The translations under genes and the position numbers were made by a program. Positions 11,689 through 15,824 of a stretch of 64,000 nt of DNA are shown here, one piece after another; the first letter of the stretch is position 1, and each line of letters opens with the position of its first letter. Below the pieces are notes generated by a model. That model ran no database searches, was not told the origin of the DNA, and saw only the letters and a program-made list of their open reading frames with translations. The stretch spans positions 62,001-126,000 of the forward strand of contig NZ_PRLD01000001.1 in the NCBI RefSeq assembly GCF_003287405.1. The letters are read 5' to 3'. This stretch comes from Faecalibacterium prausnitzii (lineage in GTDB: Bacteria; Bacillota; Clostridia; Oscillospirales; Ruminococcaceae).

Positions 11689-13059
11689 ATGGAACGAGAA
11701 ACTCTGAAATCCCGTCTTGGCTTTATTTTGCTTTCCGCAGGCTGCGCCATCGGCATCGGCAATGTGTGGAAGTTCCCGTATATCGCCGGTCAGGGCGGCG
11801 GCGGTGCTTTTGTACTGTTCTACCTGATCTTTCTGGTCATTCTGGGTCTGCCCATCATGACCATGGAGTTTGCCGTGGGACGCGCCTCCCGCAAAAGCCC
11901 GGTGCGGGCGTATCAGGCGCTGGAAAAGCCGGGGCAGAAGTGGCACATCCACGGCTACTTTACCCTCATCGGCTGCTACTTGCTGATGATGTTCTACACC
12001 ACCGTAGCGGGCTGGATGCTGCACTATTTCTACATGACTGCCGCCGGCAAGCTGGCAGGGCTCAACGCAGAGCAGGTAGCTGGTAAGTTTACCGAAATGC
12101 TGGCCAGCCCCGCCACCATGACCTTCTGGATGGTATTCGTGGTGGTAGTGGGCATTCTGGTGTGCGCCAAGGGGCTGCAAAGCGGTCTGGAGCGTGTGAC
12201 TAAGGGCATGATGATCGCCCTGCTTCTCATTATGGTGGTGCTGGCTGTCAACAGCCTGTTCATGCCCGGGGCAAAGGAAGGCCTTTCTTTCTTCCTTGTG
12301 CCGGACTTTACCCGGATGCAGGAAGTGGGCGTGGTCAACACGCTGGTCTCCGCTATGAATCAGGCGTTCTTCACCCTCAGCCTTGGCATCGGTGCCATGT
12401 CCATCTTCGGCAGCTATATCGGCAAGGAACACTCCCTGCTGGGCGAGTCTGTCCGCATCGTGGTGCTGGATACCTTCGTAGCTATCACCGCCGGTCTGAT
12501 CATTTTCCCGGCCTGCTTTACCTATCATGTGGACCAGACCAGCGGTCCCAGCCTGATCTTTATCACCCTGCCCAACATCTTTGCCAATATGTCCATGGGT
12601 CGGCTGTGGGGCAGCCTGTTCTTTTTGTTCATGGCCTTTGCAGCCATGTCCACCGTGCTGGCAGTGTTCGAAAATATTATCTGCTGCGGCATGGAGCTGA
12701 CCGGATGCAGCCGCAAAAAGTCCAGTCTGGTGAACCTTGTGCTCATCATCCTGCTGTCCATGCCCTGCGTGCTGGGCTATAACCTGTGGACATGGGATGG
12801 CTTTGCGGTATTCGGCGGTGCTGTGCTGGATGTGGAGGATTTTCTGGTCAGCAACCTGTTCCTGCCGCTGGGCAGCTTGGTGTATCTGCTGTTCTGTGTT
12901 ACCCGCTACGGCTGGGGCTGGCAGAACTACAAAAAAGAGGTCAACACCGGCGAGGGTCTCAAGGTGCAGGACTGGATGCGCGGCTACCTGACCTATGTGC
13001 TGCCGCTTATCGTAGTGTTCATCTTTGCGTTTGGACTCTACGACAAATTCCTAGCATAA
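11689..13059 (+). CDS. Sodium-dependent amino-acid transporter, NSS (SNF) family
   Basis: 456 residues with about 11-12 membrane helices. The first helix SAGCAIGIGNVWKFPYI is the sodium/substrate site of the neurotransmitter:sodium symporter family (LeuT fold). Bacterial relatives such as MhsT and TnaT import hydrophobic or aromatic amino acids. The start follows AAGGAG, 14 nt after rluB, so it may be partly co-transcribed. A terminator at 13109-13160 ends it. The substrate cannot be assigned. Confidence 0.9.
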   Translation: MERETLKSRLGFILLSAGCAIGIGNVWKFPYIAGQGGGGAFVLFYLIFLVILGLPIMTMEFAVGRASRKSPVRAYQALEKPGQKWHIHGYFTLIGCYLLMMFYTTVAGWMLHYFYMTAAGKLAGLNAEQVAGKFTEMLASPATMTFWMVFVVVVGILVCAKGLQSGLERVTKGMMIALLLIMVVLAVNSLFMPGAKEGLSFFLVPDFTRMQEVGVVNTLVSAMNQAFFTLSLGIGAMSIFGSYIGKEHSLLGESVRIVVLDTFVAITAGLIIFPACFTYHVDQTSGPSLIFITLPNIFANMSMGRLWGSLFFLFMAFAAMSTVLAVFENIICCGMELTGCSRKKSSLVNLVLIILLSMPCVLGYNLWTWDGFAVFGGAVLDVEDFLVSNLFLPLGSLVYLLFCVTRYGWGWQNYKKEVNTGEGLKVQDWMRGYLTYVLPLIVVFIFAFGLYDKFLA

Positions 13060-13079: not shown

Positions 13080-13108
13080 TTGACGAACGGGCGGAACAAG
13101 TGTAATAT
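13080..13108 (+). promoter_or_regulatory. Promoter of the LytTR two-component operon
   Basis: TTGACG (13080-13085), 17 bp, TAATAT (13103-13108). Its start point would fall within the left arm of the terminator that follows. Confidence 0.6.
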
Positions 13109-13160
13109 AAAAGCATATAGGGTGCTTCTCCCGGCGGGGGACACTGCTATATGCTTTTTT
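13109..13160 (+). terminator. NSS transporter terminator overlapping the next promoter
   Basis: Perfect 12-bp stem AAAAGCATATAG (13109-13120) / CTATATGCTTTT (13147-13158) with a T tract. Transcripts from upstream form the full stem; transcripts from the embedded promoter would lack part of the left arm and could escape. Confidence 0.8.
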
Positions 13161-13185
13161 GTATTCAGAAGGAGGAAATACCCCC

Positions 13186-13908
13186 ATGCACATTCTGGTC
13201 TGTGACGTTGATGCGGTCTTTGCTGCGCAGATGGACGAGTATATCTCGGAATGGTTCCGCGCACGGGAGATCCAGGTGCAGAGCACTGTCTGCACCAGCG
13301 GCGAGCAGCTGTTGGCTACCCCGGAGCTGGAACGCTACCAGCTGGCGTTTCTGGATGTAGACCTGAAAACCACAGATGGCATTGCGCTGGGACGCAGGCT
13401 GCGGCAGGTCGCGCCGGATATCGTGCTGGTGTACATCTCGGCGTATCTGGAATTTGCCCCGCAGGGCTACACGGTCAATGCCTACCGCTATCTGCTCAAG
13501 CGGGATATTGCCGCCCAGCTGCCCAGCTGTCTGGAGGATATCTTTGCCGGCATGACCGACCCTAAAAAGACGTTGGAGGTGCGCCACAACCGTACCACCA
13601 GCGAGATACCTCTCGACCAGATTTATTATCTGGAAAGTGATCTGCGGCAGATCAATGTCTACGGCGATATCCCGCACCAGCCCATCTGCACCTTTTACGG
13701 CAAAATCGCCGATTTGCCCGCCATGCTGTACGAAAACGGTTTTTTGCAGGTAGGGCGCAGCGATGTGGTCAATCTGCAATATGTGCGTTCCATCCGCAAC
13801 TATAAGGTAGAACTGCGCAGCGGGGTAGAACTGAACGCAAGCCGACAGGATTTTCCGGCTATTCGCAGCGCATGGCTGGAATGGAAGGGGCAGTTCGGCG
13901 ATGAATGA
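13186..13908 (+). CDS. LytTR-family response regulator (AgrA-like)
   Basis: 240 residues: receiver domain (1-120) with phosphoacceptor Asp57 in AFLDVDL, the conserved lysine in YLLKRD (about 102-107), and a LytTR DNA-binding domain (about 135-235). LytTR regulators bind direct repeats about 21-22 bp apart. An upstream in-frame start exists, but the ATG at 13186 follows AAGGAGG and gives the canonical receiver N-terminus. It overlaps the sensor kinase by 8 nt. No auto-inducing peptide gene or AgrB is in the window. The likely target is the untranslated locus just downstream (see 15191-15252). Confidence 0.88.
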   Translation: MHILVCDVDAVFAAQMDEYISEWFRAREIQVQSTVCTSGEQLLATPELERYQLAFLDVDLKTTDGIALGRRLRQVAPDIVLVYISAYLEFAPQGYTVNAYRYLLKRDIAAQLPSCLEDIFAGMTDPKKTLEVRHNRTTSEIPLDQIYYLESDLRQINVYGDIPHQPICTFYGKIADLPAMLYENGFLQVGRSDVVNLQYVRSIRNYKVELRSGVELNASRQDFPAIRSAWLEWKGQFGDE

Positions 13909-15193
13909 AGAATTCTGGCGCTGGTATATGTACGGCCACTGGGTCTGCCTGACCCAATGGATCGGCTTTATCATGGTGGAATATGCTTACCTTGGCAAGG
14001 GCAAGGTAAAGCACCCTCTGGTGTGGTCCGGTGTTATAACCATGCTTACGATGACCCTTTCGGTCGTGCACAACTATGGCTTTTTTACGCCGATGGCAGT
14101 GGCTCTCACACTTCTTTTTCTGTTCATCACCGTCATGCTATTTGGCGGCACACCGGGTCAGAAGTTTACTGCCTGCCTGATCAACGGTACCATGTGCCTG
14201 TTGGTTGAAAACAGTATGCGGTATGTCATATCGTGGATCCTGAAGTGTGAACTGCAGCAGGTCATCCAACGCGCAGACTGTCTAATCATCATAGCGGTGG
14301 CAAATATGGTGGTGGGCGCAGCTGTGGCCTTTTTGGTAGGCAAGTGGCGCAGGCGCAATGCGCTGGAGCCCTTGCAGGCGCTGACCATGAGCTTTTTTCC
14401 GGGTGTGGTCGTGGTGCTGAACATCCTGCTCATGCTCACAGATAACAACAAAAGGGCCACCATGGCCACAATGGGGATGACAGTGGGGCTTACGGTGGCT
14501 GTCATGGTGCATCTGTGTATCGTGGCGATGTTCAATGATCAGGTCATGCAGCGGCGCAGCCTGCATTTTCAGGCCGAGCTGGAGCAGCAGCGGGCCTCGG
14601 CTCTGCTGGATTCCTACACCGCCCAGCGCCGTCTGACCCATGAGTTCACCAACCACATCAGTGCGCTGCGTGCCTTGCTGGAACAGGGAGATGTGGCTGG
14701 TGCACAGAACTATATTGCCGGTGTAGATAAGGCTGTGGCGGCCAGCACCACCATTATGGATACCCACAACCCGCTGCTGGATTCCATCCTGACCCGCAAA
14801 TACGAGGAAGCCGCCCGGCAGGGCGTAAGCGTGTATTTTGACCTTTGTGATTTGCGGAATTTTCCCTTAAGCGGGGTGGATATGGTCACCGTGCTGGCAA
14901 ATCTGCTGGATAACGCCATCTGTGCCGCAGCGCAGGCGTACCCACCGGAGGTCTATGTACGGGTGCGCAAAACGGGGGAGGAATACCTTCTCTCGGTGCG
15001 CAATCGGGTGCAACGGGATGTGGAGCTGCCGCCGGATGGGCAGCTGCCCCGCACCACCCGCAAGGAGCCCGGCCACGGCATGGGGCTTTCCAACGTGCGG
15101 GACGTTCTGCTGCGCCATGGTGCGGAGTATACCCTGAGCTGCCGGGACAATTGGTTCCGCTTTACCTGTGCGGTGCCCACCGACAATTCATGA
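13901..15193 (+). CDS. AgrC-like (HPK10) sensor histidine kinase
   Basis: 430 residues: about six N-terminal membrane helices (1-205) with no large extracellular domain, a short linker helix, the phosphorylated His247 in RRLTHEFTNHISAL, an N box LANLLDNAI (about 333) and a G box GHGMGLSNV of the GHKL ATPase. This is the arrangement of AgrC/ComD-type peptide receptors. Its signal is unknown. It partners the preceding LytTR regulator (8-nt overlap). I see no peptide precursor gene nearby, so the ligand may come from elsewhere or not be a peptide. Confidence 0.88.
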   Translation: MNEEFWRWYMYGHWVCLTQWIGFIMVEYAYLGKGKVKHPLVWSGVITMLTMTLSVVHNYGFFTPMAVALTLLFLFITVMLFGGTPGQKFTACLINGTMCLLVENSMRYVISWILKCELQQVIQRADCLIIIAVANMVVGAAVAFLVGKWRRRNALEPLQALTMSFFPGVVVVLNILLMLTDNNKRATMATMGMTVGLTVAVMVHLCIVAMFNDQVMQRRSLHFQAELEQQRASALLDSYTAQRRLTHEFTNHISALRALLEQGDVAGAQNYIAGVDKAVAASTTIMDTHNPLLDSILTRKYEEAARQGVSVYFDLCDLRNFPLSGVDMVTVLANLLDNAICAAAQAYPPEVYVRVRKTGEEYLLSVRNRVQRDVELPPDGQLPRTTRKEPGHGMGLSNVRDVLLRHGAEYTLSCRDNWFRFTCAVPTDNS

Positions 15194-15252
15194 CATCTGC
15201 ACCGTCAGAATATGACAGTTTTTGTGCAACACAAGCGTAACTCTGCTATACT
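15191..15252 (+). promoter_or_regulatory. Promoter with LytTR-like direct repeats
   Basis: TATACT (15247-15252) has only a poor -35: TTGTGC at 15222-15227 is 19 bp away. Such wide spacing is typical of activator-dependent promoters, including those of AgrA. Upstream, TGACATCTG (15191) and TGACAGTTT (15213) form a direct repeat with a 22-bp period; the second copy ACAGTT matches the AgrA half-site core. The repeat is short, so this is suggestive only. Confidence 0.45.
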
Positions 15253-15258
15253 AAAGCC

Positions 15259-15625
15259 AGTAAAGGAAGCCTTCCGTGCGGACATGGTCACGTTGCGGTG
15301 GGAGGGTAACACCCTTCTTTTTAAGAGCTTTGTTGCTGGATGGAAAACGGCCTGCGGTGCGTGTAAGCGGGCTGTCTACCTTTGCTTTTTGGGTTGCGCA
15401 TAGATGCGCAGACCTCTGCTGACGGAACTTTCTGCGGCGGGCCTTTTGGGGGTTGCAGTCGATAAAGTTACTCGATGCGTCGCAATTCCGGCTCTGCTTG
15501 CTGTATGGGAATGGCGTAGGCAGGTCGGGGTATCGTGCGCTGCAAAGAGTTCCGTCAGCTCTCTTTTGTGCAAAAAAGGACTGCTCTACATGGGTTTTGC
15601 CCAGTATAGCAGTCCTTTTTGTATA
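15259..15625 (+). ncRNA. Candidate structured RNA of about 365 nt next to the LytTR system
   Basis: A stretch with promoter and terminator but no credible coding sequence. The strongest structure is a long-range helix: 15418-15439 pairs with 15538-15559 over about 22 positions, the outer 12 perfect (GCTGACGGAACT / AGTTCCGTCAGC), closing a domain of about 98 nt. There is also a hairpin GGTTGCGCA/TGCGCAGACC at 15392-15414, and AAGAGCT (15323) could pair alternatively with AGCTCT (15557). I find no RNase P, tmRNA, SRP or 6S hallmarks. The reading frames present lack ribosome sites. Whether it is a regulatory RNA like Agr RNAIII is inference. Confidence 0.5.
15565..15625 (+). terminator. Terminator of the candidate RNA
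   Basis: AAAAAGGACTGCT (from 15573) pairs with AGCAGTCCTTTTT (15608-15620), with inner GGG/CCC, giving a long stem ending in a T tract. Confidence 0.9.
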
Positions 15626-15700
15626 CTCGACCCTCTCAGTCATCGCAGCGCTCTGCCGATTTCCTCAAAGAAAAACTTTGACTCTATAAGCCAACGAATG

Positions 15701-15741
15701 AAAAAGCAGCTCAGCCAAGCCCGCAGGCTTGGCTGAGCTGC
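15701..15741 (-). terminator. pyrBI operon terminator
   Basis: Perfect 16-bp inverted repeat GCAGCTCAGCCAAGCC (15706-15721) / 15726-15741 with a CGCA loop; the minus strand continues into TTTTTCATT. Between it and pyrI lies a shorter stem (ATGCGC/GCGCAT, 15768-15792). Confidence 0.88.
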
Positions 15742-15824
15742 AAAATTAAAATGCAATTCCTTGAGCTATGCGCAGAGCGAAGCGGAGCGCATTTGAAATC
15801 GTTTTGCTTCGGGCAAAAATGCAG

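Follow-up and report, generated by a model that had tools for sequence, protein, structure and literature searches.

What is encoded in the ~630 bp that separate the end of a histidine-kinase gene (15193) from the end of pyrI (15825, minus strand) in the 64,000-nucleotide stretch of Faecalibacterium prausnitzii DNA analyzed here (hereafter, the window)? Upstream of this gap, on the plus strand, are genes for a transporter of the SNF/NSS sodium:neurotransmitter symporter family (11689–13059; Pfam PF00209, E 7.9e-52, and synteny), a response regulator with a LytTR DNA-binding domain (13186–13908; PF04397, E 7.6e-12; PF00072, E 4.8e-9), and a histidine kinase with a GHKL ATPase domain and hydrophobic N-terminal segments (13901–15193; PF14501, E 7.3e-13; hydropathy); downstream, in the opposite orientation, are pyrI, pyrB, and a gene for a GntR/UTRA regulator. 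A preliminary description of this DNA proposed that the gap encodes a regulatory RNA that is the main output of the adjacent, Agr-like regulator/kinase pair. The Agr-like designation fits the pair itself, a GHKL kinase and a LytTR regulator, but not the locus: no agrB was found at the RNA locus, AgrB matches occur at other places in 10 of the 12 genomes (with no match in the other two), and an agr locus proper is rejected, the neighbors being the SNF transporter and, mostly, pyrI. The reading that we favor, and consider probable, is that the gap encodes a non-coding, two-domain, structured regulatory RNA of ~360 nt that has its own weak promoter, serves as the main output of the pair, and acts in trans. 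Its conservation, structure, promoter layout, and co-occurrence with the pair are observed by comparison.

The predicted RNA occupies ~362 nt of the plus strand (15259–15620, with inferred ends). The segment 15255–15625 folds at −165.8 kcal/mol, compared with a shuffled mean of −128.9 kcal/mol (sd 6.2; z −5.98; 0 of 100 shuffles as low). The strong terminator reported previously corresponds to an inverted repeat at 15574–15620 (plus strand) that folds into a hairpin and ends in TTTTT; a simple terminator scan did not list it. In four relatives (L019–L022), the long helix described below itself runs, by eye, into a T run and could serve as the terminator; the extracted sequences of two of these RNAs, L019 and L020, extend past the RNA and probably include promoter sequence of the following gene, such that their lengths, 320 and 319, are too high. 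A search of the whole window with Rfam 15 at gathering scores yielded 0 matches. At E ≤ 10, the sole match within the RNA in a search of 15150–15800 was a CRISPR repeat on the other strand (E 1.5), and all Rfam matches at this threshold were weak, far below family thresholds. A known RNA class is rejected by the failure of Rfam to match, in agreement with the preliminary description, and the conserved, folded RNA that the region appears to specify would belong to a family not yet described.

To define the distribution of the RNA we used a covariance model of its 3' domain (R1), built from 11 of the 12 RNAs (all except L013), which match by construction; a plain DNA search recovered the region in only 7 of 31 genus genomes. 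With 102 first-look candidates scored per genome, R1 finds the RNA in 12 of the 31 Faecalibacterium genomes, in one copy each, and scores 130.7 bits on the plus strand of the window vs. 22.1 bits on the minus strand. These 12 are the same genomes that have a kinase orthologue of at least 51% identity (51–100%); distant orthologues (37–41%) are present in nine more. Downstream of the close kinases the RNA is present in 12 of 12 cases, and downstream of the nine distant kinases it is not seen in seven; at the other two, L028 (225 nt) and L030 (131 nt), the sequence downstream is too short, and absence of the RNA rests on the R1 search. At four loci with a distant kinase and no RNA (L024, L026, L027, and L029), the next open reading frame (ORF) looks, by eye, flavodoxin- or ferredoxin-like and is possibly a different partner of a related pair.

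The order transporter, regulator, kinase, RNA, with the transporter as upstream neighbor of the pair, is shared by the window and 11 RNA-bearing relatives. The transporter occurs in 27 of the 31 genus genomes (E 1e-150). Two distant-kinase genomes that were fetched (G016 and G001) have the pair with no transporter within the 9 kb taken; in two other genomes (G012 and G002), whose transporter has 89% identity, neither regulator nor kinase was found in the surrounding 12 kb, and R1 did not find the RNA in these genomes. In a tree of 20 of the 27 transporters, G012 and G002 fall among the RNA bearers with weak support, and two changes, such as a single gain with a joint loss, are required on this tree. 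The adjacency of the transporter hints, as a guess, at an amino-acid-like substrate as the signal.

Searches with R1 in the family (3 of 396 genomes) and in the order (2 of 394 genomes) matched only members of the genus and one further genome, G092, with strict filters and eight candidates scored per genome, so that weak relatives could be missed. The G092 match (L053; E 0.005, 25 bits) is probably due to chance. At E 1e-60, the kinase was found in 5 of the 396 family genomes. A pattern scan of genome contigs gave nine loci, of which the five from Faecalibacterium score above 90 bits with R1; the remaining loci, from Acidimicrobiaceae, Bathyarchaeota, an uncultured Clostridia bacterium, and Chryseobacterium, scored below 11 bits or were not listed by R1. 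Beyond the genus, the family and order searches thus yielded no convincing match.

The 3' domain of the RNA comprises 27 pairs that, in a structure-blind alignment of 11 sequences (A1; L013 left out), are paired in 91.0% of cells, vs. 84.5% in shuffled alignments and 38–45% when slid. Thirteen of the 27 pairs change on both sides, a number reached by 0 of 500 shuffles; the number of further pair types, one of five measures, was equaled in 179 of 500 shuffles and is not beyond shuffles. The compensatory changes all lie within one genus, the shuffles ignore relatedness, and independent events are few. The long helix of the preliminary description, 15418–15439 with 15538–15559, is present: in the blind alignment its outer 14 positions pair in 9–11 of 11 sequences and its five innermost positions (15435–15439) in 8–11, whereas pairing at 15432–15434 is limited to 7, 7, and 5 sequences, respectively. 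The outer part, P2 (15418–15431 with 15546–15559, plus strand), is paired in 96% of cells over the nine pairs counted, and five of these nine changed on both sides, providing the compensatory changes for which the relatives were to be checked, an outcome in favor of the proposed RNA. P5 is a hairpin (15494–15523, plus strand) with a conserved GGGAA apex (GGGA tetraloop); its two helices are paired in 71% and 91% of cells, the lower figure reflecting a shift of P5 by one base in some rows of the blind alignment. A linker hairpin (15392–15414, plus strand) folds in the long forms only and is gapped in L019–L022. Invariant or nearly so are the letters UUGCGG, the GGGG before UUGC, AUA-AG, and GGGAA, of which GGGAA is invariant.

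The 5' domain is closed by helix P1, in which GUAAAGG (15260–15266) pairs with CCUUUGC (15379–15385), both on the plus strand. Across the 12 sequences all 84 cells of P1 are paired, a value reached by 1 of 2000 strand shuffles, and its strands change together, as from GUAAAGG/CCUUUGC to ACAAGGC/GCCUUGU. Within the domain, a UUGCGG motif (15293–15298, plus strand) is invariant in 12 of 12 sequences, and hairpin A (15349–15373, plus strand) combines a changing stem with a loop whose GCGUGU (15359–15364) is likewise invariant in 12 of 12. The stem of hairpin A is paired in 70 of 70 cells in 10 of the 12 sequences (L019 and L021 left out; 0 of 2000 strand shuffles); the counts for P1 and hairpin A, for which strands were named by hand, lean towards structure. 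In a blind alignment of all 12 sequences, hairpin A is paired in 67.9% of cells vs. 56.8% when shuffled (1 of 500 as high) and 32–60% when slid, and part of the loss of pairing is due to loop-length shifts left ungapped. A further helix, P1b, identified by eye, is fully paired in 5 of 10 sequences and bulged or mismatched in the others. In one relative (L018) the GCGUGU motif is present a second time, near the P5 apex.

Positions 15428–15439 can pair in two ways. In a local arm (15428–15467, plus strand), a CUUU/AAAG closing helix and hairpin B form, to the exclusion of pairing of 15428–15439 with 15538–15549. The local pairing, with 15453–15467, is kept in 97.3% of 110 cells (slid controls 37–58%), the far pairing, with 15538–15549, is kept in 93.9% of 99 cells (slid controls 40–70%), and the tetramer CUYU is paired in 44 of 44 cells in either state. 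Two-sided change is confined to one pair in the local fold (15430/15465, in four sequences; 457 of 500 shuffles reach that number) and to one pair in the far fold (15438/15539, in two sequences; 203 of 500 shuffles). Covariation thus is thin for both folds, and the case for two folds rests on kept complementarity. The energy gap between the two states of the tetramer ranges from 0.3 to 13 kcal/mol, and the free minimum is the far state in 8 of 11 sequences, the local state in two, and neither in one. The kept dual pairing may reflect a switch, an intermediate in folding, or nothing more than conservation of the sequence. A tentative extension of the favored reading, to which we attach rather low probability, is that this genus-restricted new RNA family combines the role of dedicated, single output of a two-component system with that of a conformational switch, alternating between a three-way junction with a GGGG loop and a long helix, and refolding upon binding of a target or ligand.

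Two LytTR-type repeats, ATGACA at 15190–15195 and ATGACA at 15212–15217, and a −10 box, TATACT at 15247–15252, are present on the plus strand, in agreement with the TGACA repeat and TATACT promoter of the preliminary description. The repeats are found in 12 of 12 sequences, and their period of 22 bp (start to start) and the placement of the −10 box, 35 nt downstream of where repeat 2 begins, are identical in 12 of 12, though the RNA has diverged. The −10 box reads TATACT in seven sequences, TATAAT in three, TACAAT in one, and TATGAT in one. The −35 is poor, as described: no good one is seen by eye, and a consensus promoter scan does not call a promoter. Relative to the inferred start at 15259, the repeats are centered at ~−66 and ~−44. 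The layout is that of a LytTR-activated promoter, with two direct repeats about 21–22 bp apart upstream of a weak promoter. In 12 of 12 loci (L011–L022), repeat 1 shares bases with the stop codon of the kinase gene (ATGA), placing a predicted regulator site within the end of the kinase gene.

The window contains a single exact match to ATGACA-N16-ATGACA; with up to two mismatches, it contains seven matches vs. 3.6 expected, and 12 of 100 shuffles have as many. The count in the window therefore is near chance, and the case for the repeat rests on conservation and not on the window alone. Across the 12 genomes, the pattern with up to one mismatch occurs at 29 sites, 12 at the RNA and 17 elsewhere; a reversed-pattern control gives 23, and matches away from the RNA are at background level. 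One kind of match shared between genomes away from the RNA was examined, common to G000, G008, and G015, and lies inside a coding frame; two further kinds are common to 2–3 genomes. The RNA promoter thus appears to be the only conserved promoter site for the repeat pattern; the genome-wide search covers near-exact repeats only, so a wider regulon is possible. The repeat kept in 12 of 12 sequences and the background level of other matches fit the proposal that the RNA is the main output of the pair, and the pair probably switches the RNA on. Separately, three loci in three Faecalibacterium genomes (L090, L099, and L100) have near-identical DNA for one gene, while the other genes of these genomes have diverged more, which is suggestive of a mobile gene.

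Other readings of the region must be weighed against a separate non-coding transcript. RNAIII encodes delta-haemolysin, and the RNA here could likewise encode a small peptide, or an autoinducer; every sequence has short ORFs, and the gap has ORFs up to 130 aa. However, none is kept open in relatives, inspection of ORFs of at least 12 aa found none common to the 12 sequences on either strand, and the four closest relatives have indels of 1–2 bases along the RNA. The two longest frames considered, of 130 aa on the minus strand and 110 aa on the plus strand, are matched chiefly in the three relatives closest to the window, where they are interrupted by stops or breaks in the frame; protein identity over the long matches is 42–74% for the former and 36–91% for the latter, mostly below the 88–95% identity of the RNA at the DNA level. 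A coding region is rejected on these grounds, the frames being unshared and broken by stops and indels; a peptide product is highly improbable, and the earlier claim that 630 bp hold no plausible protein gene stands; the absence of a conserved reading frame on either strand likewise favors the proposed RNA. That the RNA is instead the 3' untranslated region of the kinase mRNA, stabilized or processed, would accord with the stretch that joins the end of the kinase gene to the RNA, in which no terminator is seen by eye, so that read-through is possible; we regard this as unlikely, given that the constant spacing of a −10 box from a constant repeat, seen in all 12 sequences, argues for a promoter here. 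The two alternative pairings kept in relatives recall riboswitches, and would suit a cis-acting leader of a downstream gene. A leader, however, is very hard to reconcile with the downstream genes: in the window and nine of the 11 relatives pyrI is encoded on the opposite strand, in G014 and G015 it was not found within the 9 kb taken, and the sequence directly 3' of the RNA varies, L019 and L020 having an ORF that looks cupin-like by eye and L015 and L022 having other sequence.

According to the favored reading, the GHKL kinase would phosphorylate the LytTR regulator, which would bind both ATGACA repeats and compensate for the poor −35; the RNA would then be made and would fold into two domains, the 5' one with P1 and the hairpin whose loop has the invariant GCGUGU, the 3' one with P2, hairpin B (GGGG loop), and P5 (GGGA loop); synthesis would end at the terminator; and the invariant loops would let the RNA act in trans, either on mRNAs or on a partner protein. 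In this scheme, the transcript, its activation by the regulator, and its action in trans are predictions. In a rival reading, the RNA is a sponge or scaffold whose invariant loops bind protein and not mRNAs. This reading accommodates loop letters, GCGUGU, GGGG, and GGGAA, that are invariant or nearly so while stems vary, as expected of a protein site, and G-rich loops that differ from the C-rich loops of many Gram-positive small RNAs. Against it, CsrA, the best-known partner of GGA loops, is absent from six of six genomes checked (3 of 14 control genomes were positive), and Hfq is absent from the same number, six of six, in a search that included positive control genomes; there is therefore no familiar RNA partner in these six genomes. 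A sponge of the CsrB type is rejected for a host without CsrA (0 of 6 genomes), and we consider the sponge or scaffold reading in general doubtful. Also rejected is a feedback in which the conserved loops would pair with the mRNA of the transporter or the regulator: a small check for loop complements at the transporter and regulator starts gave no shared site in 12 loci (in one of which, L070, no regulator start was located).

The system proposed for Faecalibacterium has counterparts in which a two-component system drives a regulatory RNA. The staphylococcal agr kinase is of the GHKL type, and VirR is a LytTR regulator; the letters of the staphylococcal agr repeats differ from those of the ATGACA repeat. 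AgrA promoters have spacers that are too long and promoter-proximal direct repeats centered near −60 (PMC4227749). The Faecalibacterium RNA resembles RNAIII, a long regulatory RNA with an ill-spaced promoter activated by a LytTR regulator from direct repeats (PMC4227749), the same arrangement being predicted here; it differs from RNAIII and agr in that Rfam gives no match, no ORF is conserved, and no agrB was found beside the pair. VirR acts directly on two direct repeats that immediately precede the −35 to stimulate regulatory RNAs (PMC2838878), and the VR-RNA/VirS-VirR system of Clostridium perfringens thus shares a regulatory-RNA promoter with a direct-repeat pair. VirR also drives protein genes directly, whereas here no other conserved promoter site is seen. 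As in RNAs of the RNAIII and VR-RNA type, driven by two-component systems, the region here encodes a conserved structured RNA with covariation and no conserved ORF. By analogy, the Faecalibacterium RNA may work like RNAIII and VR-RNA, with no kinship detectable by Rfam; the likeness to VR-RNA drawn here is one of regulation.

Faecalibacterium ranks among the most abundant bacteria of the human gut. If the favored reading is true, the genus has a regulator resembling RNAIII that functions in the absence of Hfq (0 of 6 genomes), together with a sensor system for which one RNA is the sole conserved output seen, making signal and targets directly testable. Among titles and abstract openings we found nothing on this RNA, nor on any regulatory RNA of Faecalibacterium. 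A comparative screen of intergenic regions in human-associated bacteria reported 3161 intergenic candidates (PMC8040213); its main text names neither Faecalibacterium, LytTR, nor histidine kinase, and its supplementary candidate lists may contain the Faecalibacterium RNA.

Two further hairpins are present near these genes. A strong, terminator-like hairpin of 16 pairs on the minus strand at 15706–15741 probably marks where the pyrB-pyrI transcript ends. A second terminator-like hairpin, seen by eye at 13108–13162 (GCATATAG...CTATATGC, then a T run), separates the stop codon of the transporter gene from the regulator's ribosome-binding site and has promoter-like letters directly upstream; read-through or attenuation of the regulator-kinase operon may occur at this hairpin.
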